This document shows positions 2,832-22,977 of a stretch of 23,276 nt of DNA, one piece after another. The number at the start of each line of letters is the position of its first letter. Positions within the stretch are counted from its first letter, which is position 1. The translations under genes and the position numbers were made by a program. Origin of the DNA: a virus; IMG/VR virus record IMGVR_UViG_3300011115_000145, positions 1-23,276 of that record. One strand, given 5' to 3'. Under the pieces are notes generated by a model. It was not told the DNA's origin. It saw only the letters and a list, made by a program, of their open reading frames with translations, and made no database searches.

Positions 2832-2907
2832 TCCGGTTTAGCTCAGTTGGTAGAGCAACCGCCTTGTAAGCGGTAGGTCGGCGGTTCAAGTCCGTCAACC
2901 GGAACCA
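2832..2907 (+). tRNA. tRNA-Thr (anticodon UGU)
   Basis: A complete 76-nt cloverleaf is present, including an encoded CCA (2905-2907). The acceptor stem TCCGGTT/AACCGGA (2832-2838 with 2897-2903) pairs perfectly. The D arm contains AGCTCAGTTGGTAGAGC. The anticodon stem ACCGC/GCGGT encloses the loop CTTGTAA, with TGT at 2865-2867. The T arm contains GGTTCAAGTCC. It decodes ACA and possibly other ACN codons. It lies 6 nt after the RMF-like gene, so it is probably cut out of the same transcript. Confidence 0.97.
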
Positions 2908-2910
2908 TAC

Positions 2911-2987
2911 TTGTCCTTAGCTCAGTTGGATAGAGCAACAGCCTTCTAAGCTGTAGGTCATTGGTTCAATTCCAATAGGACAAACCA
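2911..2987 (+). tRNA. tRNA-Arg (anticodon UCU)
   Basis: A complete 77-nt cloverleaf is present, including CCA (2985-2987). The acceptor stem TTGTCCT/AGGACAA (2911-2917 with 2977-2983) pairs perfectly. The anticodon stem ACAGC/GCTGT surrounds the loop CTTCTAA with TCT at 2945-2947. The T arm is ATTGG-TTCAATT-CCAAT. It reads AGA and AGG. Only 3 nt separate it from the tRNA-Thr, so both are likely processed from one precursor. AGA appears often in the long virion genes here, so codon-supply compensation is a reasonable inference. Confidence 0.97.
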
Positions 2988-3205: not shown

Positions 3206-6200
3206 TCATCTTCTTTCTACTAGCCCACCCTTGGCTAGCTTCTGAGTTAGCTCTCTGACCTTGTTAACACTTTTAACTTGACTAGCAGCATCACTAGCCC
3301 AGCCTTCCTGTAATACTTTTAACTCTTTGTTTAAAGAACGCAGTAACATAGCCTTTTCTTTAGAGCCTTGCTTTTCTAAGATATTACTTGTCGTAGTTAA
3401 CAAGTCTTTAGTAAGGATTATATTCTTGGCTGCTCCTTTTCCTGTAGTAAAGGAAGAAAGACCAGACTTTTCAATATAATCTAGATTAGATAGTTCATTG
3501 TGATACCTCTGTCCCATGCCAGCTTTGGTTGAAGTGATATCAGCTTTCTCCATATAATTATTAAAGAGATTTCTTATCTCTTTATATATTTTATTAGCAG
3601 CAACATCACCCTTCTCCGTATAGAGGTCAGAACTCAAATCAATAATTCTATCTTTTATTTTTACCTCTTCCTTTTTGCGGTTTAGAAATCCCTTCTTATC
3701 CCAATCTTTCCCAAGCAAAGATACTTTCTCAGGATTAGCGGCAGCAAGAGTAACATCGTTAGCCGCTGATCTAACTTCTAATTGATTGCCTGTTCCTTTA
3801 CCTTCAGGACGAAGCTTGTCCGTCTCTGTAATCATGTCTTCTGTTTCTTTAAAGTTAGAAGATCTTGGCAGACCAACAGGACGAATAACTCTGTCAGACC
3901 CGTTGATAGACTGAGCAATAATATTTAAGTTCTTATTGTCATATGCTGTAGGAGCCATGTTAATTCTCTTGAACATGTAGTCAGCGTATGGCATCTCTGT
4001 ATAGACAATCTTATCTGCATTAGGCCCACCAAAAGCAGGGGACTCAAAGTTTAAATTCAAATCTCTAGTGAATGATGTACCACCCACTTCCATTTCACTA
4101 TGGTATTTTTCAATCTGTTGTGGGTCTAAGAAGCCTGTCTTATATCTAGTAGTAGGCTCAGCCGCATACGCAGCTTTGCCATGATAGAGTTTCACTGGTG
4201 GAGTATCTTTGTACTCTTCTCTCAGTGCATCTAGTTTCTTCTGTGCTTTGACAGCCATATCTTGTACGATGCCAATGTCCTCAGCCTTAGACGGGTTTAT
4301 TTCTCTTCCTTCTTTAATACGGAAGTCACCCTGCACCACTGCAATAACATCTTCAACGTCTGGAAGCTCTTTAACCTGAGGAAGATTAGTTAACTTATCA
4401 AAAGAATATGTTCTAGATTCCCGCACAGCAGCAAGCACTTGCTTTCTACTGGTTGGGCCTCTTCCTACAGTATCTAAATTTCCTTGAAGAATTTTAGATT
4501 CAGGGATGGAGGGAAGAGTTTCTCTCTCTTTCTTTACAACCAGTTTAGCTTTCTCAGGATTGTTCCAAGAGTAAGGAGTATCAGGATCAAAGTCACCGAC
4601 ATCTTCTCCCTGTGCTTCATACTTCTTGTACAGATCGTATTGCTTCTTCCACTCAGGCACTTCTTCTTCTGGTAGTTTAACTGCTGGTGCTTCCGCTTTG
4701 GGAAGGGTAGGCTCAGGAGCGTCAACAAAACGTCCTTCTCTTTCTACATCACCAAAGTATGGCCCTTCGTCTTTAACAACCTTTGAAGTAGATGTAGGCC
4801 GAAAGACAGGACGCTTAGTAGATGTAATAGATTCAATAGGTTCTACCACACTCTTACCTAAAGCAGTTTCTTTTGTTGCCTTGAGGGCAGCAGCAGTCTC
4901 TTCAATTTCCGTGCCAACTTTCTTTCCTAGCATGGAGTCCATCTGCTGTAGTAGGTCAGCGCCAAGCTTGGTAATACCACGTTCTATAGTTTCTCCAGCT
5001 AGCTTCTTAGCCACGATACCACCACCAGCATATCCCACCACACCACCAGTGGCTTTGCCATCAGGCTTCAGAATATTCTGCACTGCTTCAGCATAAGCTA
5101 ATCCAGTTTCATATTCCTTAGTTTCTGTAAGGTCTTTACCTGTGTTCTGTTTGTACAAAGCAGCGGCCTGACGCTTCACTTCAGCGGGTTTGGCTGCATA
5201 CCTATTCTCTATAACACGAGCAGCCCCTAAGCCGCCTTCTATGGCCTTTGATCTAGCTATATCTACAGCAACAGTCTTAGCTTCTTTCTGCATGCCAGCA
5301 AGCGTATTCTCCAGCGCTATCTTCTGTAGATCTTTGTTAGCATTCTTATAGAAGTCAGTGGATGTTAAAGCCTCGTAAGAAGCTATCAATTGTGGAGCAA
5401 GCATTTCTTTGGCTTGCCTATCAACAACCTTATCACCTGTAGTGGTGAACAGCTTATTGAAAGGAACATCAAGACGAGTTAGCTCTTTCTCAAATGGAGT
5501 TGGATTAACCTTGATAGAGATACCAGCAAACATCTTCAATAAACCAGCATCGTTAAAAGAAGCTTCAGTCTTTGTAACTGGCTGTGCCACTGGCAGTTCC
5601 TGTTTCAACACAGGTACTTTTGACATCAGCACATTCTTTGCAGACGAGATAAATCCCTCTTCTCCCTGCTTGATTTCATAGACAGACCTAGGAAGGGTTT
5701 CATTCCTATCAACAGCCCCAATGATATCGCTCAGTTGCTGCATTGGAATAAGCGCTCTGCCAAAGTATTGACCAGCCCACTCACCAAAGAATGTACTTAC
5801 TTTCTTCTCTGCCACATCTTCACCAGTTGCCGAGGCTTGCCAATTAGATGCTGCTGTAGCAAACTGATCGCCTAGCCAATTACCTGTACCTGCTGGCATC
5901 TTAAATCCAGTTACTGCCTCAAGCAATTCTTTAGCTTTGAATTCACTTGTAGTTCCATTCTCTAGCTTAACCAAGTAATCACCTAGTGCTAGGAAGGGGG
6001 CGGCAGGGAAGAAGGCTCTAGTATCAACCAAGCTACCATCAGTATTCTTAGCATCGTACCACTCAGTGTCTTGGTTATCTTTTCTGTATTTATAAGCGGC
6101 GTAAATTGCGCCTGTGCCTACAATACCTTTGGACAGCTTCTCTAGTCCAGCCATCCTCTTGTTAAGATCTTTACTAGCGACATCAATAGAACCTGACACA

Positions 6201-8782
6201 AGACCTATTGGGCTGTGTGTAGCTGTCCACTCCATAGCGTTAGCCATGAAACGAGGAAAAGGTATTAGCGTTGACCCTACAGGGCCAAGCTCTTCAACAA
6301 ACTTAACCGCATGATAAACCGGCCCTTTAGTAGGCATCTTACTAAATGTAGCGAGTAATGCTTCATTTGTAGCATTCTTTAGAACGTCCAAAGGAATATT
6401 CTTATCTTGAGCCAAGACACTGTACATGTCTATGCCAACACGATCTAGTTGCTTCTCTACGTTAGCAGCGAAGATGGCTCTTCTAAAGAAAGCATCCTGT
6501 GCTACGTTAAAGGTATTAGCAATCTGTCCTACTCTGGACAAACCTTGATCACCAGCTTCACCAGCCGTTTTCAGGATAAGACTATTTAGTGTTGGAGAAC
6601 CCGCCAACAACTTCTCTGCCACCTCAGCAGATAAGCCAGCATCAGATAAGTAAGAAGCTGTTCTGAATGCATCATTCCATACACCCTTGATGCCATTAGT
6701 AAACGAACCAGTAACAGGCTTTCCTGTGTATATCTCTGCGGATGTTTTACCCACTCTGTACAGAGCAGACTCAACAGCTTCAGAGGCTGCTCCAAACGTA
6801 ACCACGGTTAAGCCTGAGTAGGCGTTGCGTACAGTGGTAGCTATCTGAGAAACCATCAAGGCTTTCAGTTCTTTATCCATTCGCATGCCAATGTCTTTAA
6901 CAAAACCAAACGAATCAGTAATGGCATTCCTATTACCATACATCAGGTCTACTTCTTTAGCAGCAGCAGGGTCAATGTTCTTTAGTTTATTCTGTATCCT
7001 CGACAAAACAGAATAGCTCTGCATTGTGCTGGCTGCATCACTCACTGTGGTTCTGTTCATACGAGCAAACTCTTCAGGAGTGATGTTTGCTTTTGCAAAT
7101 GCATCCTTCAAAGCAACATCGTCAATGTTATCTATGTTAAGGAACACATTCTTAACAGCATCAGATACCTTCTCTCCCTGCTTAGGGGCAAACTCAGGTA
7201 GGCTAGTCCATACTTCTTGTGCAAGCTGTGTGGCTTTTCTATTAATCTCTTTTCTAACCTGCATCTGCGCTACAGCAGATTCGTTCTTCGCAAAAGCTCT
7301 TTCGTAATCCATCCCTGACAACCCCTCAAGGTTGATCTGTTGCTTGTCCAGTAGGTTACGCCCTTCAAAGATATCGTAGTCATCTTCTAGTTGCTTCTGT
7401 GTACCTGTAGATGCTTTAACCTCCAGCTTAGGAGCGGGAGCTTGGGGAAGCCCTGCTTTTTTTCTAGCTAGGATTTCGTCTAGACTGCTTTGACCACCGC
7501 CTAGCTTCTTACCTGCTTTAAGAACAGCAGCAGCTTCAGCCGAACCCATAACACCGCTAACAGCACCTGAGATAACTGCTTGCTTGATGTTGATGCCTTC
7601 TTCTACTTTCTTTCTAAGTAAATCTAAAGTTGGCTTAAGCTTATCCTGTTCTTCAGGACTAAGAGAAGGGAATCTATCTTCAGCATTTTTAAGCTGAGCA
7701 GCAGCAATTGTTAACTCTATCTTTTGCTGCCCTGTATCGGACGCTACGCCCTGTGCTGTTTCTATAGCAGGTATAGCAGCTACTTTGCCTATGTTACTAA
7801 CTAAAGCTTTCTTGAGTCCCTGCTCAGCTACAGCTTTTTGAATGGGGGTAGCAAGCATCTTCCCTGCCCCCAACGACACAAAGGTAAGTGGGTCTGAGAA
7901 CATAGACAGTAATGAATCTGTTACTGGTCTAATTCCTTTCTGTCCTTTGCCTCCTGCTGTCATCATAGATGGGTCTGCTATATTATCCCATAAGGTATAA
8001 GCAGCATCCATTTTTAACTTATCTTCTTGTTTAGCACTATTTAAAAATTGTATTTCAGAACCTAATGAAAATGGATTGCTTCTCTTCAGAAAACGCATTT
8101 GCTGAGCAAAGCGGTTAACATAGTCTTCTGTAGATTCGTTAGGTTTCTGCAATTCGCTCTTACCAAAACGAGCTAGTACATACTCATCAATTGTTTTCTT
8201 CAGCGCAGGGGATTGTATCAAGGCATCGAAAGGAATCTTGTTCTCTTCTGCTAGTCTTGTTTGTTCTACCTTCTCCTTCATAGCCTCTGCTCTGGGCTTG
8301 AATTCTCCAGCAAGTTTAGATTTAAAACTAAACGCTGCTGATACTTTAGACTCATCAGTTGTAGGAGCAGGAGCCTTTGCTGTCATTACCTCTGCTTTAG
8401 GTTCAGTAGCCTTGATATCATAGAGAGAAGGTGTACGAACTTGCTTGTCTCTTGCTGGAAGTGTAGGCTCTACAGCTACAGGCTCAGTAGTGGCTACACC
8501 AGCCTTCTTAGATGTAGCAGCTATCTCACGATCTAATGATTGAACATCAGCAGCAGCCCTATCTTCTCTAGCTTTGTCTTTTAAACGCTGGGCTTCGGAA
8601 AGAGCAATAGAGGCTTTCTCTTTCTCTGCTTGGAGAATAGAGAGCCTCTCTTTATCTTTTGCTTGCTGGTCTGGCCTAGTAACCAGAGAAGTAGATTTCT
8701 TTGGAACCAGATCATCAAAAGAAACTTCTTTTGGTTTCTGGTTACTAGGAATTAAATCATCAAAAGAAAGGTCATAAGCCAT
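3206..8782 (-). CDS. Giant ejection-type internal virion protein (1858 residues)
   Basis: This is the last and largest gene of the virion operon, probably a protein packaged in the head and injected, as T7 gp16-type proteins are. Residues 1-30 carry a duplicated SFDDLIP/SFDDLVP motif. A charged helical segment with coiled-coil character follows (about 40-95). The middle (about 450-1240) is a long helical region with weakly hydrophobic stretches, such as one at about 643-670 and PFPRFMANAMEW near 840. A Gly-rich element YAGGGIV lies at 1251-1257 and appears to divide the protein. The C-terminal 600 residues include LYHG (1532-1535), SFTRD (1570-1574) and YTEMPYADYM near Glu1596, which together resemble an ADP-ribosyltransferase-like fold. 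The last nine residues are AKGGLVERR. No lytic transglycosylase motif was recognised. The start ATG lies 3 nt after the 510-residue gene. The virion role is inferred from size and position. Confidence 0.7.
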   Translation of the reverse strand: MAYDLSFDDLIPSNQKPKEVSFDDLVPKKSTSLVTRPDQQAKDKERLSILQAEKEKASIALSEAQRLKDKAREDRAAADVQSLDREIAATSKKAGVATTEPVAVEPTLPARDKQVRTPSLYDIKATEPKAEVMTAKAPAPTTDESKVSAAFSFKSKLAGEFKPRAEAMKEKVEQTRLAEENKIPFDALIQSPALKKTIDEYVLARFGKSELQKPNESTEDYVNRFAQQMRFLKRSNPFSLGSEIQFLNSAKQEDKLKMDAAYTLWDNIADPSMMTAGGKGQKGIRPVTDSLLSMFSDPLTFVSLGAGKMLATPIQKAVAEQGLKKALVSNIGKVAAIPAIETAQGVASDTGQQKIELTIAAAQLKNAEDRFPSLSPEEQDKLKPTLDLLRKKVEEGINIKQAVISGAVSGVMGSAEAAAVLKAGKKLGGGQSSLDEILARKKAGLPQAPAPKLEVKASTGTQKQLEDDYDIFEGRNLLDKQQINLEGLSGMDYERAFAKNESAVAQMQVRKEINRKATQLAQEVWTSLPEFAPKQGEKVSDAVKNVFLNIDNIDDVALKDAFAKANITPEEFARMNRTTVSDAASTMQSYSVLSRIQNKLKNIDPAAAKEVDLMYGNRNAITDSFGFVKDIGMRMDKELKALMVSQIATTVRNAYSGLTVVTFGAASEAVESALYRVGKTSAEIYTGKPVTGSFTNGIKGVWNDAFRTASYLSDAGLSAEVAEKLLAGSPTLNSLILKTAGEAGDQGLSRVGQIANTFNVAQDAFFRRAIFAANVEKQLDRVGIDMYSVLAQDKNIPLDVLKNATNEALLATFSKMPTKGPVYHAVKFVEELGPVGSTLIPFPRFMANAMEWTATHSPIGLVSGSIDVASKDLNKRMAGLEKLSKGIVGTGAIYAAYKYRKDNQDTEWYDAKNTDGSLVDTRAFFPAAPFLALGDYLVKLENGTTSEFKAKELLEAVTGFKMPAGTGNWLGDQFATAASNWQASATGEDVAEKKVSTFFGEWAGQYFGRALIPMQQLSDIIGAVDRNETLPRSVYEIKQGEEGFISSAKNVLMSKVPVLKQELPVAQPVTKTEASFNDAGLLKMFAGISIKVNPTPFEKELTRLDVPFNKLFTTTGDKVVDRQAKEMLAPQLIASYEALTSTDFYKNANKDLQKIALENTLAGMQKEAKTVAVDIARSKAIEGGLGAARVIENRYAAKPAEVKRQAAALYKQNTGKDLTETKEYETGLAYAEAVQNILKPDGKATGGVVGYAGGGIVAKKLAGETIERGITKLGADLLQQMDSMLGKKVGTEIEETAAALKATKETALGKSVVEPIESITSTKRPVFRPTSTSKVVKDEGPYFGDVEREGRFVDAPEPTLPKAEAPAVKLPEEEVPEWKKQYDLYKKYEAQGEDVGDFDPDTPYSWNNPEKAKLVVKKERETLPSIPESKILQGNLDTVGRGPTSRKQVLAAVRESRTYSFDKLTNLPQVKELPDVEDVIAVVQGDFRIKEGREINPSKAEDIGIVQDMAVKAQKKLDALREEYKDTPPVKLYHGKAAYAAEPTTRYKTGFLDPQQIEKYHSEMEVGGTSFTRDLNLNFESPAFGGPNADKIVYTEMPYADYMFKRINMAPTAYDNKNLNIIAQSINGSDRVIRPVGLPRSSNFKETEDMITETDKLRPEGKGTGNQLEVRSAANDVTLAAANPEKVSLLGKDWDKKGFLNRKKEEVKIKDRIIDLSSDLYTEKGDVAANKIYKEIRNLFNNYMEKADITSTKAGMGQRYHNELSNLDYIEKSGLSSFTTGKGAAKNIILTKDLLTTTSNILEKQGSKEKAMLLRSLNKELKVLQEGWASDAASQVKSVNKVRELTQKLAKGGLVERR

Positions 8783-8785
8783 ATA

Positions 8786-10318
8786 TTAGAATCCCGGAAT
8801 TTTTGCTTCTCTCAAACGCGCTATAACATCGTCTCTTTTAGCACCTCTAGCAATAGCCTCTTCAGCTTTCTTAACAGCAGCATCTTGTTCAGGAGTAAAG
8901 GTTACTCCTCTTGGTCTAATAGACGCTGCTGCTGGTGCTGCTGGTGTTGCGGATGGTGTCGTTGTTCCCGAAGGAGCAATGAATCTACCCTGTGCATCAG
9001 GCAAAACATTCACAGAGATAAGGGCGTTTCTGTGGAAGTCAGATAGAGGCATTCCATCTTGATCAGTGAATTGTCTAGTCAGACCAGACTTAGCTGCACT
9101 GATAGCGGCAGTGAAGCGATCACCCTTAACCAAGGCAGTGGGAACCATCTGCACAGTACCGTCAGGATTGACAGTAGTTATCAAAGATCCGGGTGGTAGT
9201 GCCTCTGTGACAGCGGATGCTACAGCCCTGCTGGCGATAGTAATATAGTTAGCTTGTGTAACTTCTTTCGGAGTAGCGTCTTTAGCTACTAAAGCTCTGC
9301 GTTCAGAAAGCGTCTTCTTCAGTTTATCTGCTTCCGTTACAGAAGTATTAGGATCTTGAATCCTATTGATGAGGTCAGTCTGAATTGCTGCTTCAGTACT
9401 ATCTTTGCTCAATAGTTTTTGTCGTTGGTCAAGTTCAGTTTCTAATGCTTTCTTCTCTACTGGCGTAGTCTTAGGGTCTTGGATTTTATTAACAAGTTCA
9501 GTTCTGATGTCTTCCTCAGTCCTCTTAACCTGTGCTTTACCCATAGCCTCAATAGCAACAAAGGTAGATACCTGTGACGTAGCCTTAGCTAGTCTCTTCA
9601 ATGCTTCAGGATTTGACGGATCTTTTTCGTAAGCGGTCTTGGCATCAACAATATCTAGTTGAGCAGCATCCTTAGCCTCAGAGAAGGTCTTCTTATTCTT
9701 AAGAATACTCAAATCATATTGCGCCCCAGAAGGAGTAATTGTTCTAGTGTATTCCTTAGCAGCTTGTAGTTGTTCCAACGATACACCATAAGCAGCAGTG
9801 GCCTGTGCTATTCCTGATTGAGTGCCACGCAAGCCAGACTTCTTCATCATGCCAGACAGGAAGCCTTCTCCCTCAGTGGATTCTGGAGTGATCGATTTAA
9901 ACGCAGAAGAGGCTTTGTTAACTGCCTCAGGAATAGTAAATAGTTTATTAATACGATCTTCAGCAGTTAGCGGAGAATCAGACTTAGCTGCTGTAACAAA
10001 GTTATTGATGTTGAATCCAGTAGCATCAAAGTCTTTATCCTTCATCCTAGTGTATAGCATGTCCAATACTCCCCTGTCCTGTGCGAGGGAAACAAGTTGG
10101 TCAGGCGTAGCGTCAGGAGCAAAGCCCTTGATTACATTAATCTTTTCTTTAACATCGTTAGATATAGTACGGTTCTCTTTAATAACATTAGAATAGTTTT
10201 CGTACAAGGCTTTAACTTGAAGAGCAGATCTTGCCTTAGCGTCTTCTTCTTCTTTCTTTAAATCCTCTACTGCTGCACTAGCAAAGCCACCACCAAAAGA
10301 TGTCCAATTCATTCCCAT
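8786..10318 (-). CDS. Internal virion-type helical protein (510 residues)
   Basis: The protein begins MGMNWTSFGGGFASAAVED, a small Gly/Ala-rich N-terminus as found in several podoviral internal proteins, then becomes largely helical and charged. Residues about 269-309 and 310-348 are two tandem copies of a 41-residue unit, each with IQDP followed by a helix ending in KD[SA]T. A Pro/Ala linker near 460-475 leads to a C-terminal unit with FTPEQDAAVKKAEEAIARG. It lies between the 168- and 1858-residue genes with 1-3 nt spacing. AGAGG precedes the ATG by 7 nt; a second ATG two codons later is also possible. No catalytic motif is visible. A role as an ejection or internal core protein is inferred from context. 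Confidence 0.6.
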   Translation of the reverse strand: MGMNWTSFGGGFASAAVEDLKKEEEDAKARSALQVKALYENYSNVIKENRTISNDVKEKINVIKGFAPDATPDQLVSLAQDRGVLDMLYTRMKDKDFDATGFNINNFVTAAKSDSPLTAEDRINKLFTIPEAVNKASSAFKSITPESTEGEGFLSGMMKKSGLRGTQSGIAQATAAYGVSLEQLQAAKEYTRTITPSGAQYDLSILKNKKTFSEAKDAAQLDIVDAKTAYEKDPSNPEALKRLAKATSQVSTFVAIEAMGKAQVKRTEEDIRTELVNKIQDPKTTPVEKKALETELDQRQKLLSKDSTEAAIQTDLINRIQDPNTSVTEADKLKKTLSERRALVAKDATPKEVTQANYITIASRAVASAVTEALPPGSLITTVNPDGTVQMVPTALVKGDRFTAAISAAKSGLTRQFTDQDGMPLSDFHRNALISVNVLPDAQGRFIAPSGTTTPSATPAAPAAASIRPRGVTFTPEQDAAVKKAEEAIARGAKRDDVIARLREAKIPGF

Positions 10319-10319
10319 A

Positions 10320-10826
10320 TTAAACCTCTACTTTACTTTTACGTTGCATTAGTCCTGCCTTCACTTCTTTAAGTTCAGGGACAGGTTCAGTCTCCTCAGT
10401 AGGAGCTTTCATTAAATCAGCCACAGCCATCTTAACCGCTCTTGCTGGGATGGTACGCATAGTATCATGTTCGTCAGAATAAATAACTGTTTTAATATCG
10501 TGCAGCATTGCTGTTGTCTTCAGCATTTCAATGATGATAGGCATAACAAGAATACCTGTGTCTAATGTGTGAGTACCTTTCTGTACCCCACTAAGCATAA
10601 TCACTTCAGCTAGAGAAGCTAAAGGTGCTTTAGTTTCCAGTGCATCAAGCACAGGATTAATCATCTCTTTAGAAGATAACTTAGAAATATAAGTATTTGC
10701 TACGTCTGAGAGCTTTGTATATTTAGGAGGACTCTGCCACGCTCTACTTTTAGGTGGCGCTGTCCATGATATACCCGCTGGTACAGATTTGAGCGCCTGT
10801 CCAGCAGTTAGTTCATTTGTTGCCAT
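10320..10826 (-). CDS. Conserved-looking phage protein of the ejection cluster (168 residues)
   Basis: I do not recognise a named family. The N-terminus is Pro/Trp-rich (GISWTAPPKSRAWQSPPKY, about 18-36). An alpha-helical core follows with LSDVANTYISKL and LETKAPLASLAEVIMLSGVQKGTHTLDTG-type features, then a hydrophobic strand-like ILVMPIIIEML (about 91-101) that is too short and isolated to call a membrane segment. The tail is charged, ending QRKSKVEV. Translation probably couples to the preceding 71-residue gene: the start sits 14 nt inside that gene and has AGGAGA at a good distance. The layout between small and large internal proteins suggests a virion component, but no function can be assigned. 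Confidence 0.55.
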   Translation of the reverse strand: MATNELTAGQALKSVPAGISWTAPPKSRAWQSPPKYTKLSDVANTYISKLSSKEMINPVLDALETKAPLASLAEVIMLSGVQKGTHTLDTGILVMPIIIEMLKTTAMLHDIKTVIYSDEHDTMRTIPARAVKMAVADLMKAPTEETEPVPELKEVKAGLMQRKSKVEV

Positions 10827-11028
10827 CTAAAATCTCCTGTCTTGTTTCTCTAATGCCTTCAATATAATCAGCTATCATCTTTAACGATGGGTCTTCTTTG
10901 GAGGACTTCTCTTTCATGGAAGGCGCAGCTACCAACCCCTTTGATTTAGAAACTTTAGTTAAGGGAGAGGCTTTCCTCTTAGCTAGGACATCTTCTATTT
11001 TATTAAAATAAGTTTTAATGTGTTGCAT
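10813..11028 (-). CDS. Small basic protein, unknown function (71 residues)
   Basis: The 71-residue protein is Lys/Ser-rich, with a helical N-terminus (MQHIKTYFNKIEDVLAKRK), a low-complexity centre with many Lys and Ser, and a C-terminal helix (MIADYIEGIRETRQEIL). It overlaps the following gene by 14 nt and starts 10 nt after the 798-residue gene. The Shine-Dalgarno is weak. Its place in the gapless minus-strand operon argues that it is real. It could be a small scaffold or chaperone of the ejection proteins, but nothing in the sequence proves it. Confidence 0.5.
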   Translation of the reverse strand: MQHIKTYFNKIEDVLAKRKASPLTKVSKSKGLVAAPSMKEKSSKEDPSLKMIADYIEGIRETRQEILDGNK

Positions 11029-11038
11029 GATATTCTAC

Positions 11039-13435
11039 TTAAAGATCTTTGATGATTTCATAAGCTAATTTTCCCCAAGAAAGACTAGCATCAGCGTCTG
11101 CTTTAATTTCAACTGCTGTCTTACTAGCATTAGCTGTGATTGTGGTAACAGCCAACTGAGTAAGTCTATCCTTATCATTCTCCCCTGCTTTATATGAGAG
11201 TTCCAATAAGTCCCTGTATGTTTGAGACTGTTGGGAATATGTAGATGCAGATAGATCTGTAGCATTCTTTGCATTCACTGCATTAATTGCGTTAGCTTCT
11301 CTTGTGTTAGCAGTAGAAACATCAGCCAATATTTTAGCATTAGCTAGATCAATCTGTGAACCTAGTTGAGAATTAAACTCTTCTCTTCTGTTTTGCTCAT
11401 TAGCATTAAATTTAGCTATTTCATTAGTAGCAGCGTTGTTAGCTATCAACACTCTATTCTGTTCAGACGCATTATACTGTGAGGCTTGAAGAGCAAGACT
11501 AGAACTGATCTTGTCAGCTTCTAAAGCATTAGAAGCGTTAACGGCCTTAGCAGCATTCTCTGCTGCTGTATCACTAAGAATAGATTGCGTGATAGCCTGT
11601 GTTTTTATCACAGCCATTTGTTGCTTGTTGTCCAAGTTCTTCATATCCATTTCTAAAAAAGCTTTAGAAGTTAATACGTTTGCTTGTTGACGATTATTAA
11701 GATTAGTTAAATCAAGAGTCGCAGCAGTAGCAGCATTAGCAATGGTAGTAGCCTGTGCAGAACTAAGCTCAGCCAATCCAATACTTTTCATTATTTCAGA
11801 ATTATGCAATGCTGTATTCTGAGCAGCAGTAAATGTAAGATTAGCATTCTCTGCAATACGGGAAGAATTAAGCACGGCAGCTTGTTGTTTATTATCTAAT
11901 ATCTTACCTTGCATAGCTGCTTCAATTTGTGCGTTAGCCAAGGCAGTTTGTTGTCTGTTAGAAGTATTAGCCATATCCACTTGTACTTGCATTGTGCTGT
12001 TATGCAGGGCAGTTTGCTGTACATTATTCAAATTGATATTGGCTTGTTCAACATAACGGGCAGCATTAAGCACAGCAGCTTGCTGAGAATTACTTAAGTT
12101 TTGACCTTGCAGTGCTGCCCTAATTTGGGTATTAGCCAGCATTGTTTGCTGCGTATTACTTATGTTCTGACTTTGCAAAGCAAATGAGTGAGTTGCGTTA
12201 GTAAGTCTTGCCTGTTGTTCGTTAGACAAATTCTGTAGAGATAAACCCTGTTGAGCAGCGGCATTAGCTAAAGCAACCTGTTGTCGGTTGTTTAAGTTCT
12301 GCATGTTCATTGTTTCAAACACCTTAGCGTCTTGAGCAGCAATAGGTAAGGCGCTTTCCATAGCTGCTTGGAACACGGCTGTGCTAGCCATAGAACTATT
12401 ACCAAGACCCCTAGAGGCCATTGCAGAGTTAGCGGCTCTAATAGCACCAGCAGCCCATGCAGGGGTAGAGCCATCGTTAAAACTCTTCATCAATGAAGAT
12501 AGTTGGCCCTGTACTGTGGACAACGCATTAACATCACCCTGTGCTGCTCGTGCTAATGTTCCATCATCTACAGTGAATGCTGCCAACTTAGCAGCAACAA
12601 CTTTAGCATCAGGAGCCAGCCCTTCAGCAACAAGAGCCGTTGATTGTGCCATATCAGATTCTTTAATCTGAGCAGCTTGCACAAGTTGATTTTCCTGTAC
12701 AACCCCTTGGGCTGCTTCCGCTTTTTGAGGCGCTGCTGTTTGTGCGGCTTGTGATTCTACTTTAGGAACAGTGGTTGCAGCTTCAACAAGTTCTCCAGCA
12801 CCTGTGGTTCGTGTTTGAGCGGTTACAGGAGCTTTATATTCTTCACCTACTTTTTGTATTGCAGCAGTAGCTTCGCTAGATAGAGCACCAATAGCAGCAG
12901 TTGTTAAAGCCGAAGTACTGAGTGTTCCTTGGGCTGCACTAGCCTTATCCAGTTCTGTCTGTAAAGCAGTCTGTGATGTATCAGCAGTTATGCTTTTAGC
13001 TGTTATAGCAGTGGGTAGAGTGGCTTGCTTAACATCCGTTGTAGGTATGATAGTTGCTGTTGCATCTGTTGTATCAGCAGCTTTTGTGTACGTTACATTC
13101 GCTGGTGTAGAAGTTTGAGCAGCAGTTGCTGTTGTTGCTACTGGTTTAACAGGGATAGCATCAGAGCCAGTTGTATCAGAGCCAGCACCACCAGCAACTG
13201 TGTCAGAACCAGCACCACCAACAGCACCACCAACATCACCACCACCAGCATAGTAGCGTCTCTTTACCATACCGCCTTCAGCCATCTTAGTGACATACTT
13301 AGAAGTGATGGCTGAAAATCTATTAGACTCTGAAGGGGTTGATGCCAGATATTCATCAAACATTTGCATAGGGCCATCGTAACCCATCTTACGGGCCACA
13401 ATCTCGCGCTGCTGTTCTGTAAAAGTTTCTCTCAT
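11039..13435 (-). CDS. Repeat-rich ejection-type virion protein with 22-residue repeats (798 residues)
   Basis: Residues 1-50 form a charged globular start. The motif AEGGMVKRR (52-60) and YYAGGGDV (61-68) follow, then a Gly/Ala/Asp/Thr-rich linker (about 69-95) and a low-complexity Ala/Thr region to about 250. Residues 379-620 are eleven exactly phased 22-residue repeats with consensus N[LIT][SND]NxQQxAxLxN. The end (620-798) is Ala/Asn-rich and probably helical. The 22-residue period equals two hendecads, which favours a long helical or coiled-coil rod. AEGGMVKRR nearly repeats the C-terminus of the 1858-residue protein, linking the two functionally. AGGA lies about 12 nt before ATG 13435. 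The function is inferred: internal core, ejection conduit or tail-associated rod. Confidence 0.65.
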   Translation of the reverse strand: MRETFTEQQREIVARKMGYDGPMQMFDEYLASTPSESNRFSAITSKYVTKMAEGGMVKRRYYAGGGDVGGAVGGAGSDTVAGGAGSDTTGSDAIPVKPVATTATAAQTSTPANVTYTKAADTTDATATIIPTTDVKQATLPTAITAKSITADTSQTALQTELDKASAAQGTLSTSALTTAAIGALSSEATAAIQKVGEEYKAPVTAQTRTTGAGELVEAATTVPKVESQAAQTAAPQKAEAAQGVVQENQLVQAAQIKESDMAQSTALVAEGLAPDAKVVAAKLAAFTVDDGTLARAAQGDVNALSTVQGQLSSLMKSFNDGSTPAWAAGAIRAANSAMASRGLGNSSMASTAVFQAAMESALPIAAQDAKVFETMNMQNLNNRQQVALANAAAQQGLSLQNLSNEQQARLTNATHSFALQSQNISNTQQTMLANTQIRAALQGQNLSNSQQAAVLNAARYVEQANINLNNVQQTALHNSTMQVQVDMANTSNRQQTALANAQIEAAMQGKILDNKQQAAVLNSSRIAENANLTFTAAQNTALHNSEIMKSIGLAELSSAQATTIANAATAATLDLTNLNNRQQANVLTSKAFLEMDMKNLDNKQQMAVIKTQAITQSILSDTAAENAAKAVNASNALEADKISSSLALQASQYNASEQNRVLIANNAATNEIAKFNANEQNRREEFNSQLGSQIDLANAKILADVSTANTREANAINAVNAKNATDLSASTYSQQSQTYRDLLELSYKAGENDKDRLTQLAVTTITANASKTAVEIKADADASLSWGKLAYEIIKDL
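11576..12301 (-). repeat. Eleven tandem 66-bp (22-residue) coding repeats, with 198-bp higher-order period
   Basis: Inside the 798-residue gene, eleven consecutive 22-residue units run without insertion or deletion (11 x 66 = 726 bp). Units 3-5 and 6-8 form two copies of a three-unit block: the first unit ends in AA[LM]QG, the second carries QQAAVLN and ends AN, and the third carries TALHNS. A matching DNA stretch around 11865-11882 recurs at 12063-12080, exactly 198 bp away. Units 9-11 look like a more diverged third block. Confidence 0.9.
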
Positions 13436-13781: not shown

Positions 13782-14309
13782 TTATGTAAGCATTGTCCGT
13801 GCTTCTTTATCTATTTTAGCCACCCTAGCAAGCCAGCCCCTCAAGAACTTAACTTGATCTGGTCTTCTAGCTATAATGTCCCTATAGAAACTTTCTTTTT
13901 GTTTAGTAAAACTGTTCAGCAAATCTACTGATGCAGTTTTAATAATCTTCTCCATAGTAGCTGGGCCTATAATACCATCAGCATTGCTTCCAATAGCTCG
14001 TTGAATAAACTTGACAGACTGACCAGCACCAGCATTAACAGCAAAATCAAAAACTAGGTAATCAATACCAGAAGGTAGATCATCACCACATACCTTATCC
14101 CAATACATTGCTTTATAGAAAGGCTTAACTTTATCTTTTGTTAACTCCCTCATAGCGTTGGGTGGTAATTCCTTAACTTTCAGATAAGCTATCCATGCTG
14201 CTTTAGTAACTCCAAGGTTAGTCTCCCCTCCTTTATCAAAAGGGTCATTGACATAGCCTCCTTCAGATTTGATTACTAGATCAAAAGATTTATCAAAATT
14301 CAGTTTCAT
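13782..14309 (-). CDS. Endolysin, glycoside hydrolase family 108 lysozyme
   Basis: The 175-residue protein has the GH108 signature near the N-terminus: SEGGYVNDPFDKGGETN with Glu16 as the expected catalytic acid, followed by LGVT. A helical lysozyme core includes YDLVFDF-like SGIDYLVFDFAVNAG (about 80-94). The C-terminal part (about 105-175) has the family's peptidoglycan-binding_3 pattern, with ADGIIGPATMEKI. It cleaves peptidoglycan at the end of infection. No signal peptide or SAR segment is visible, so release should need the holin encoded upstream. A full-length enzyme of this family is usually about 170-190 residues, so it looks intact. Confidence 0.93.
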   Translation of the reverse strand: MKLNFDKSFDLVIKSEGGYVNDPFDKGGETNLGVTKAAWIAYLKVKELPPNAMRELTKDKVKPFYKAMYWDKVCGDDLPSGIDYLVFDFAVNAGAGQSVKFIQRAIGSNADGIIGPATMEKIIKTASVDLLNSFTKQKESFYRDIIARRPDQVKFLRGWLARVAKIDKEARTMLT

Positions 14310-22206: not shown

Positions 22207-22977
22207 CTAGCTGAATGACGATACACTAGCTACTCGTCTTGCTGATGTATCTCTAGCTGAGATATATACTTTTCTATTGTCTCTCTGTACAAGCATTGTT
22301 CTATCTTTACTAAGAGTGTGTCTTTCAACATACACTGTACGACTCCTACTATAAAGATCTATTATAGGGACATAATCAAAAGAGGTAGTAGATATTGTAA
22401 CACTACCAAGATAGGTTATACCAGATATACCCTCTATGGGTATAATAATACCCACAGCAATACTGACATTTCCTACACTAACAACTGCCTCTATTCCATC
22501 TACAGGAATCCTGTTGACAGTTCGAATCAGTGCATTCCCTAAAGATGCAACAGCCTCAACACCAGTTATAGCAGTAGCAGCGTTAGCCACTACAACTACA
22601 TTGCCTAGACCAGCAACTGTCCCTATTCCACCTACAGGAACCCTGTTGATAGACCGAATCAGTACACTCCCTACGGACGCTGTAACACTAACTCCAGATA
22701 CAGCAGCAGTAGTCTGTACCGCTACAACCACACCACCCACAGCACTTGTTGCTGCTACTCCGCTAATTAAGACATTGGTTTTGACAGCTACAGTGATGCT
22801 GCCTACTGAGCTTGTGGCTTCCAATCCATTAGGAACGTAAGTAACACCAGCTATACCATATCTTGAAGTACCATATTTCCCTACGCCATATACAGCACCG
22901 TTTGTTGTAGTGTTTGCTGCGGAAGTATTGCCATATAGTGCGCTAAATGGTGTACCAAAGGGTGCTATGCCAAACAT
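22207..22977 (-). CDS. Virion-type protein with seven 22-residue beta repeats (256 residues)
   Basis: Residues 1-50 are Gly/Tyr-rich (FGTPFSALYGN, YGVGKYGTSRYGIAG). Residues 51-204 hold seven uninterrupted 22-residue repeats with consensus G[VI]xAxxxxG[SN]VxVxxxxxxx[VI]. The C-terminal 50 residues change character: basic and Tyr/Arg-rich (YSRSRTVYVERHTLSKDRTM), ending in SARRVASVSSFS. Alternating Val/Ile and Gly residues predict a beta solenoid or stacked hairpins. Comparable repeats occur in phage decoration proteins. The gene lies between two small virion-type genes at the head end of the operon, so a capsid decoration or head-tail role is likely. It has only a weak ribosome-binding site (GGATAA). 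Confidence 0.6.
   Translation of the reverse strand: MFGIAPFGTPFSALYGNTSAANTTTNGAVYGVGKYGTSRYGIAGVTYVPNGLEATSSVGSITVAVKTNVLISGVAATSAVGGVVVAVQTTAAVSGVSVTASVGSVLIRSINRVPVGGIGTVAGLGNVVVVANAATAITGVEAVASLGNALIRTVNRIPVDGIEAVVSVGNVSIAVGIIIPIEGISGITYLGSVTISTTSFDYVPIIDLYSRSRTVYVERHTLSKDRTMLVQRDNRKVYISARDTSARRVASVSSFS
22366..22827 (-). repeat. Seven tandem 66-bp (22-residue) beta-type coding repeats
   Basis: Seven units of exactly 66 bp encode residues 51-204 of the 256-residue protein. Units 3 and 5 are closest: they share LIR[ST][IV]NR[VI]PV[GD] and a closely similar DNA stretch at about 22500-22545 and 22632-22677, 132 bp apart. This indicates a two-unit duplication step. Confidence 0.88.

Follow-up and report, generated by a model that had tools for sequence, protein, structure and literature searches.

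The late repeat protein of an HMO-2011-type podovirus carries eleven 22-residue units, and this array is one member of a family-wide length series that advances in steps of five units. The number of units ranges from 3 to 34 among 228 orthologues. The first-pass annotation had called for repeat number to be compared among related phages; its observation of an unusually regular array is confirmed and was, if anything, understated. We judge the chances to be even that the array is a solenoid that acts as a spacer in the virion or its ejection apparatus, adjustable in five-helix steps.

The repeat protein and its array

The window, i.e. the whole stretch of DNA analyzed here, is a 23,276-base record and represents a fragment of an HMO-2011-type podovirus; it also encodes a class II ribonucleotide reductase, an endolysin, and tail genes. 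The late gene for the repeat protein (798 aa, 11039–13435, minus strand) lies downstream of the endolysin gene (13782–14309, minus strand; phrog_315, E = 9e-48), and both array anchors were found in the orthologue at 337 of the 346 fetched loci. All parts of the protein are likewise on the minus strand. A conserved N-terminal module (aa 1–68, 13232–13435), recovered as tblastn segment 1–68 in relatives, is followed in the translation by a variable T/A/P-rich linker (aa 69–318, 12482–13231); the length preceding the anchor varies widely in relatives. The upstream anchor (aa 319–376, 12308–12481), a conserved domain (PAWAAGAIR...PIAAQDA) matched by orthologue profiles, adjoins the array. The C-terminal region (aa 627–798, 11042–11557) retains a degenerate 22/11 register and was modeled by AlphaFold2 as long helices at low confidence, and it may form a coiled coil. 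The window repeat protein has no PHROG or Pfam match, and its profile (A2) matched no PDB chain when compared with solved structures. Elsewhere in the window we noted tandem tRNA-Thr (TGT) and tRNA-Arg (TCT) genes (2832–2987, plus strand) and a 256-aa ORF (22207–22977, minus strand) with a 22/44-residue period of its own, which is of a different, glycine/valine-rich kind.

The array had previously been framed at 11576–12301 (minus strand, residues 379–620 of the 798-aa ORF) as eleven 22-residue units without indels. Its natural register begins at QQ (aa 385), which by translation and unit comparison places the eleven units at aa 385–626 (11558–12283, minus strand), and the 22-residue frame runs on past unit 11 in degenerate form. 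Self-identity was 69/220 at lag 22, 56/198 at lag 44, and 73/176 at lag 66, and each of these values was reached by 0 of 2000 composition-preserving shuffles. At lag 11, by contrast, 238 of the 2000 shuffles at least matched the observed identity (29), and there is no internal 11-residue sequence repeat. Both the 22-residue unit and the 66-residue level, which is the stronger, are therefore real, and the nested period proposed earlier stands. It reflects the resemblance of units 3–5 (aa 429–494, 11954–12151, minus strand; junction types G, N, D) to units 6–8, 66 residues on (aa 495–560, 11756–11953, minus strand), with 14, 11, and 9 of 22 residues identical in the unit identity matrix. The 66-residue level is explained by the junction types of 11-unit arrays such as that of the window, in which they run D Q, G N D, G N D, D D L. 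The units had also been called perfect; this holds for their length and freedom from indels but not for their sequence, since pairs of units share between 2 and 14 of 22 residues. Nor is there a perfect repeat at the DNA level, where the best pair of window units is 67% identical, and the window array was missing from the output of Tandem Repeats Finder.

Orthologues were found in HMO-2011 (ORF phage1322_25), roseophages CRP-1, -2, -9, -13, -207, -345, and -603, pelagiphages HTVC103P, 104P, and 115P, Sinorhizobium phage phiM6, Rhizobium phages, and Pseudoalteromonas phage Slicky01. The HMO-2011, roseophage, pelagiphage, and phiM6 proteins share the flanks and the 22-residue units but mostly have 6 units, compared with 11 in the window, and are annotated as hypothetical, as are nearly all relatives; the closest annotated record (MW202701, about 70% identical) is labeled huntingtin. 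A Peptidase_S74 domain is fused to the C-terminus of the repeat protein in roseophages CRP-738 (L043) and CRP-3 (L044). A search of bacterial and archaeal genomes with one sequence pattern returned 37 matches, none of them a relative. Literature searches for a '22-residue repeat' in phages found nothing, those for hendecads in bacteriophages listed nothing on this family, and the available text of papers on related phages does not describe the repeat protein.

A length series in steps of five units

To count units, orthologues were made non-redundant at 95% identity, and nine loci without both anchors as well as three contig-end truncations (L079, L290, and L313) were dropped. A first profile for the array end was discarded since it drifted along the repeat; a junction scoring matrix was used instead and located the end with a margin of at least 64 bits except in the three truncated contigs. 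Unit numbers were taken from this matrix because the C-terminal anchor is ambiguous in the pelagiphage-like clade. The distance from the upstream anchor to the conserved downstream stretch was 3 mod 11 in 230 of 231 non-redundant orthologues, and the 11-residue bias was absent from the lengths of the flanks, both before and after the array.

Unit numbers among the 228 counted arrays (with the number of arrays in brackets) were 3 (4), 4 (1), 5.5 (10), 6 (52), 7 (5), 8.5 (5), 9 (6), 11 (38), 11.5 (1), 14 (35, leaving out the truncated L290), 16 (33), 19 (7), 21 (15), 26 (9, plus L089), 29 (2), 31 (2), and 34 (2). Two ladders, both rising by five units (110 residues) at a time, accommodate 203 of these arrays, with 25 lying off both. 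The first, 6+5k (6, 11, 16, 21, 26, and 31 units), holds 150 arrays, and the second, 4+5k (4, 9, 14, 19, 29, and 34 units), holds 53, including a single 4-unit array (Slicky01) that may be there by coincidence. Among named phages, HMO-2011 and several CRP phages have 6 units, HTVC104P has 9, and phiM6 has 3. L089, whose unit 24 is two residues short, is the sole counted array off the 11-residue grid. By our reading, the orthologue of Vibrio phage CHOED, outside the counted set, has about two units and one extra residue, and is thus off the grid by one. The N-terminal linker tends to be longer in orthologues with more units (rho = 0.61, n = 205, uncorrected for kinship), and array length did not correlate with the length of the large downstream protein (rho = 0.004, n = 93).

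On an approximate flank tree (FastTree, 228 orthologues), the ladder class switches 11 times and unit number changes at least 65 times, with 52–54 of the changes being multiples of five. These are not 65 independent duplications, because arrays recombine. Close pairs that differ by exactly five units include L280/L343 (flank identity 96.7%), L085/L274 (96.3%), L047/L075, and L255/L258; the pair L209/L261, 84% identical, differs by three. In the first two pairs, the flanks are 92–100% identical at the DNA level and most affected array units 61–79%, and identity recovers at one or both ends. Such a drop between near-identical flanks indicates that an internal stretch was swapped with that of a diverged array, in line with the earlier proposal that the array changes length by recombination. 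For the close pairs, recent slippage of tandem units was rejected as the cause of the length change.

The added units are recognizable by type. Typing on the non-redundant set from the first 119 orthologues described arrays as N1–N5, then k copies of M1–M5, then C1–C6, although the profiles were built from the same arrays, and the fit is hence a matter of consistency rather than an independent test. All 11-unit arrays read N1–N5 C1–C6, and 16-unit arrays have M1–M5 inserted. Six-unit arrays resemble C1–C6, clearly so at C2 and C4–C6, with units 1 and 3 being variable. L004 contains three M-like blocks that are mutually 61–76% identical, and L078, L085, and L088 carry another, different five-unit block.

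The step might nevertheless be historical. An early five-unit block followed by exchange of like with like would yield it with no structural rule, a reading that we take seriously while holding it to be somewhat improbable. It sits well with the exchange of internal segments in close pairs, with unit types that are conserved family-wide, and with lag 5 being the strongest internal similarity in 21- and 26-unit arrays and tying with lag 3 in 16-unit arrays. That five-unit steps might come from the pairing of similar units is also a reason to doubt a solenoid with a five-unit structural rule. Arrays of 11 units, that of the window included, are more similar at lag 3 than at lag 5, which likewise counts against such a rule; three-unit steps, which that similarity would favor, are nevertheless nearly absent, and this speaks against a purely historical step. 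So do the step of five common to two ladders of different offset and the differing contents of the blocks.

Predicted fold of the array

Two AlphaFold2 models were obtained. Model one covered aa 314–798 of the window protein with 28 sequences (pTM 0.55, confidence 70–88 over most of the array); model two, a monomer, was built from 33 ungapped 16-unit arrays with L003 first (mean pLDDT 83.3, pTM 0.74). Both monomer models show one helix per unit, with the chain broken at every unit. In units 1–15 of model two, helices span 15–17 residues except in units 1, 5, 10, 13, and 14 (13, 12, 12, 8+5, and 14 residues, respectively); units 1, 5, 10, and 13–15 have D/E15-[LMIVFT]16 in their sequence. Of 856 units, 96% have S, N, D, or T at position 20, as expected of a helix N-cap. 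The array is accordingly modeled, i.e. predicted, as a helical solenoid with one short helix per unit. The rod or right-handed coiled coil that had been suggested from the 22-residue period is not what the models show, given the break at every unit and the N-cap signature.

Two considerations temper this prediction. Given a repetitive sequence, AlphaFold2 can produce a regular solenoid. Furthermore, proline is absent from the predicted turns (0 in 62,874 array residues) and small indels are nearly so, which is unusual for loops. The same absence of proline would suit a continuous hendecad coiled coil in which each unit is two hendecads and the protein forms a trimeric or higher rod of variable length. 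Array lengths on the 11-residue grid (230/231), among them half-unit arrays of 5.5, 8.5, and 11.5 units, also agree with such a rod, as do the long helices predicted for the C-terminal part, the two orthologues that terminate in a trimeric Peptidase_S74 domain, and the couplings in the last six units (Neff 35), which carry local helical signal only (i+3/4, weakly i+7 and i+11). However, the continuous helix that defines a hendecad coiled coil is missing from the monomer predictions, which break the array per unit at good confidence, and the N-cap signature likewise argues against it. The half-unit changes in L232 and L254 sit at the array start. Lastly, five-unit steps count against a uniform rod, which would not require them. 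On balance, we consider the coiled coil unlikely.

In fold searches with both models, no PDB match reached E = 0.001, and the best query-normalized TM-score from Foldseek was about 0.2 among the solved chains listed. In a viral structure library, only three matches reached the E = 0.001 level, and by their identity these are probably homologues. The best VIA Z scores were 9.0 for model one and 6.3 for model two; these matches may reflect common helical arrangements. TPR, HEAT, PPR, and DHR proteins are all-helix tandem repeats like the array, but they have two helices per unit, whereas the array has one per 22 residues.

In the solenoid reading, each 22-residue unit would be one helix of ~16 residues, a fixed turn would directly precede N-x-QQ, and the family would gain or lose recognizable unit types in five-unit blocks (110 residues). 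The step size together with the short helices leads us to infer that five consecutive helices may make up a structural repeat, which might correspond to a single turn of a superhelix. We propose that the flanking domains would then be properly positioned only if whole blocks are added or removed. Against this reading stand the 25 arrays off the ladders, the three-unit difference between L209 and L261, the off-grid CHOED array, the missing correlation with the large downstream protein, and couplings whose signal is only local. Alleles of different length spread between phages by the swapping of internal array segments.

The late gene block and the place of the repeat protein

Downstream of the repeat gene, on the same strand, lie a small gene (71 aa, 10813–11028; an ORF with no PHROG), a 168-aa gene (10320–10826; 14 phage records match), which is the first large member of the block, a 510-aa gene (8786–10318; conserved in size and order, one phage record matches), and, at the end of the late operon, an 1858-aa gene (3206–8782; conserved in order, nine phage records match). 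In relatives, the repeat gene is followed by ORFs of ~150–250, ~300–900, and ~1000–1900 aa, sometimes with one gene inserted, so that a series of small, middle, and large proteins recurs in the late operon. Of 170 loci with enough sequence, 126 encode a protein with a PIPG-like motif as the next member. The motif is missing from the 168-aa protein of the window, and several of the loci without it keep the size order of the block. In CRP-603 (L040, 4680–5618), a cell-wall hydrolase (PF07486, E = 1.4e-23) is encoded between the repeat gene and the next gene of the block.

In size and position only, this block resembles podoviral ejection cassettes: its three larger genes rise in size much as do gp14, gp15, and gp16 of T7 in the available text of PMC8954989. 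It differs from gp14–gp16 in that the tested profiles had no sequence match to the solved chains, with those of the first and last block genes (A8 and A9) retrieving only unrelated solved chains at low significance, and in that the repeat protein would be an extra component. Gene order makes a role in an ejection conduit, as suggested in the first-pass annotation, plausible. At the head of a conserved late block, the repeat protein would most likely be a spacer or wall part of the virion's ejection apparatus.

Alternatively, the protein could be a tail needle or fiber outside the virion. Its gene lies between lysis/fiber genes and the downstream block, and Peptidase_S74, carried by the CRP-3 and CRP-738 orthologues, is typical of trimeric fibers. 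The domain is, however, present in just 2 of 31 orthologues scanned; the PHROG match is phrog_6121 ('virion structural protein') for the orthologue in CRP-3 and phrog_4287 ('DNA ejection protein') for the S74 part of the one in CRP-738. We regard a fiber as unlikely. A tape measure protein does not fit, the cultured relatives being short-tailed according to the available text of PMC6918029 and PMC9038755. Still, the 11-residue units of tape measure proteins, as presented in the available text of Belcaid et al. 2011 (PMC3271669), are likewise a phage tandem array that varies by whole units; those units are marked by W/F and belong to long-tailed phages, whereas the present ones are 22 residues long, step by five, and belong to podoviruses.

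The boldest version of the solenoid reading is that the array is a new alpha-solenoid with five helices per turn, stacked into a hollow structure, and that phages retune their DNA-delivery conduit by recombining whole turns; we think this quite improbable as it stands. The array is confidently predicted, yet has no good match among solved folds. The available text of PMC9038755 counts HMO-2011-type phages among the most abundant marine viruses, yet their repeat protein is annotated as hypothetical. The natural series, from 6 to 34 units in five-unit rungs, is a ready experiment on how phages size ejection or tail parts.
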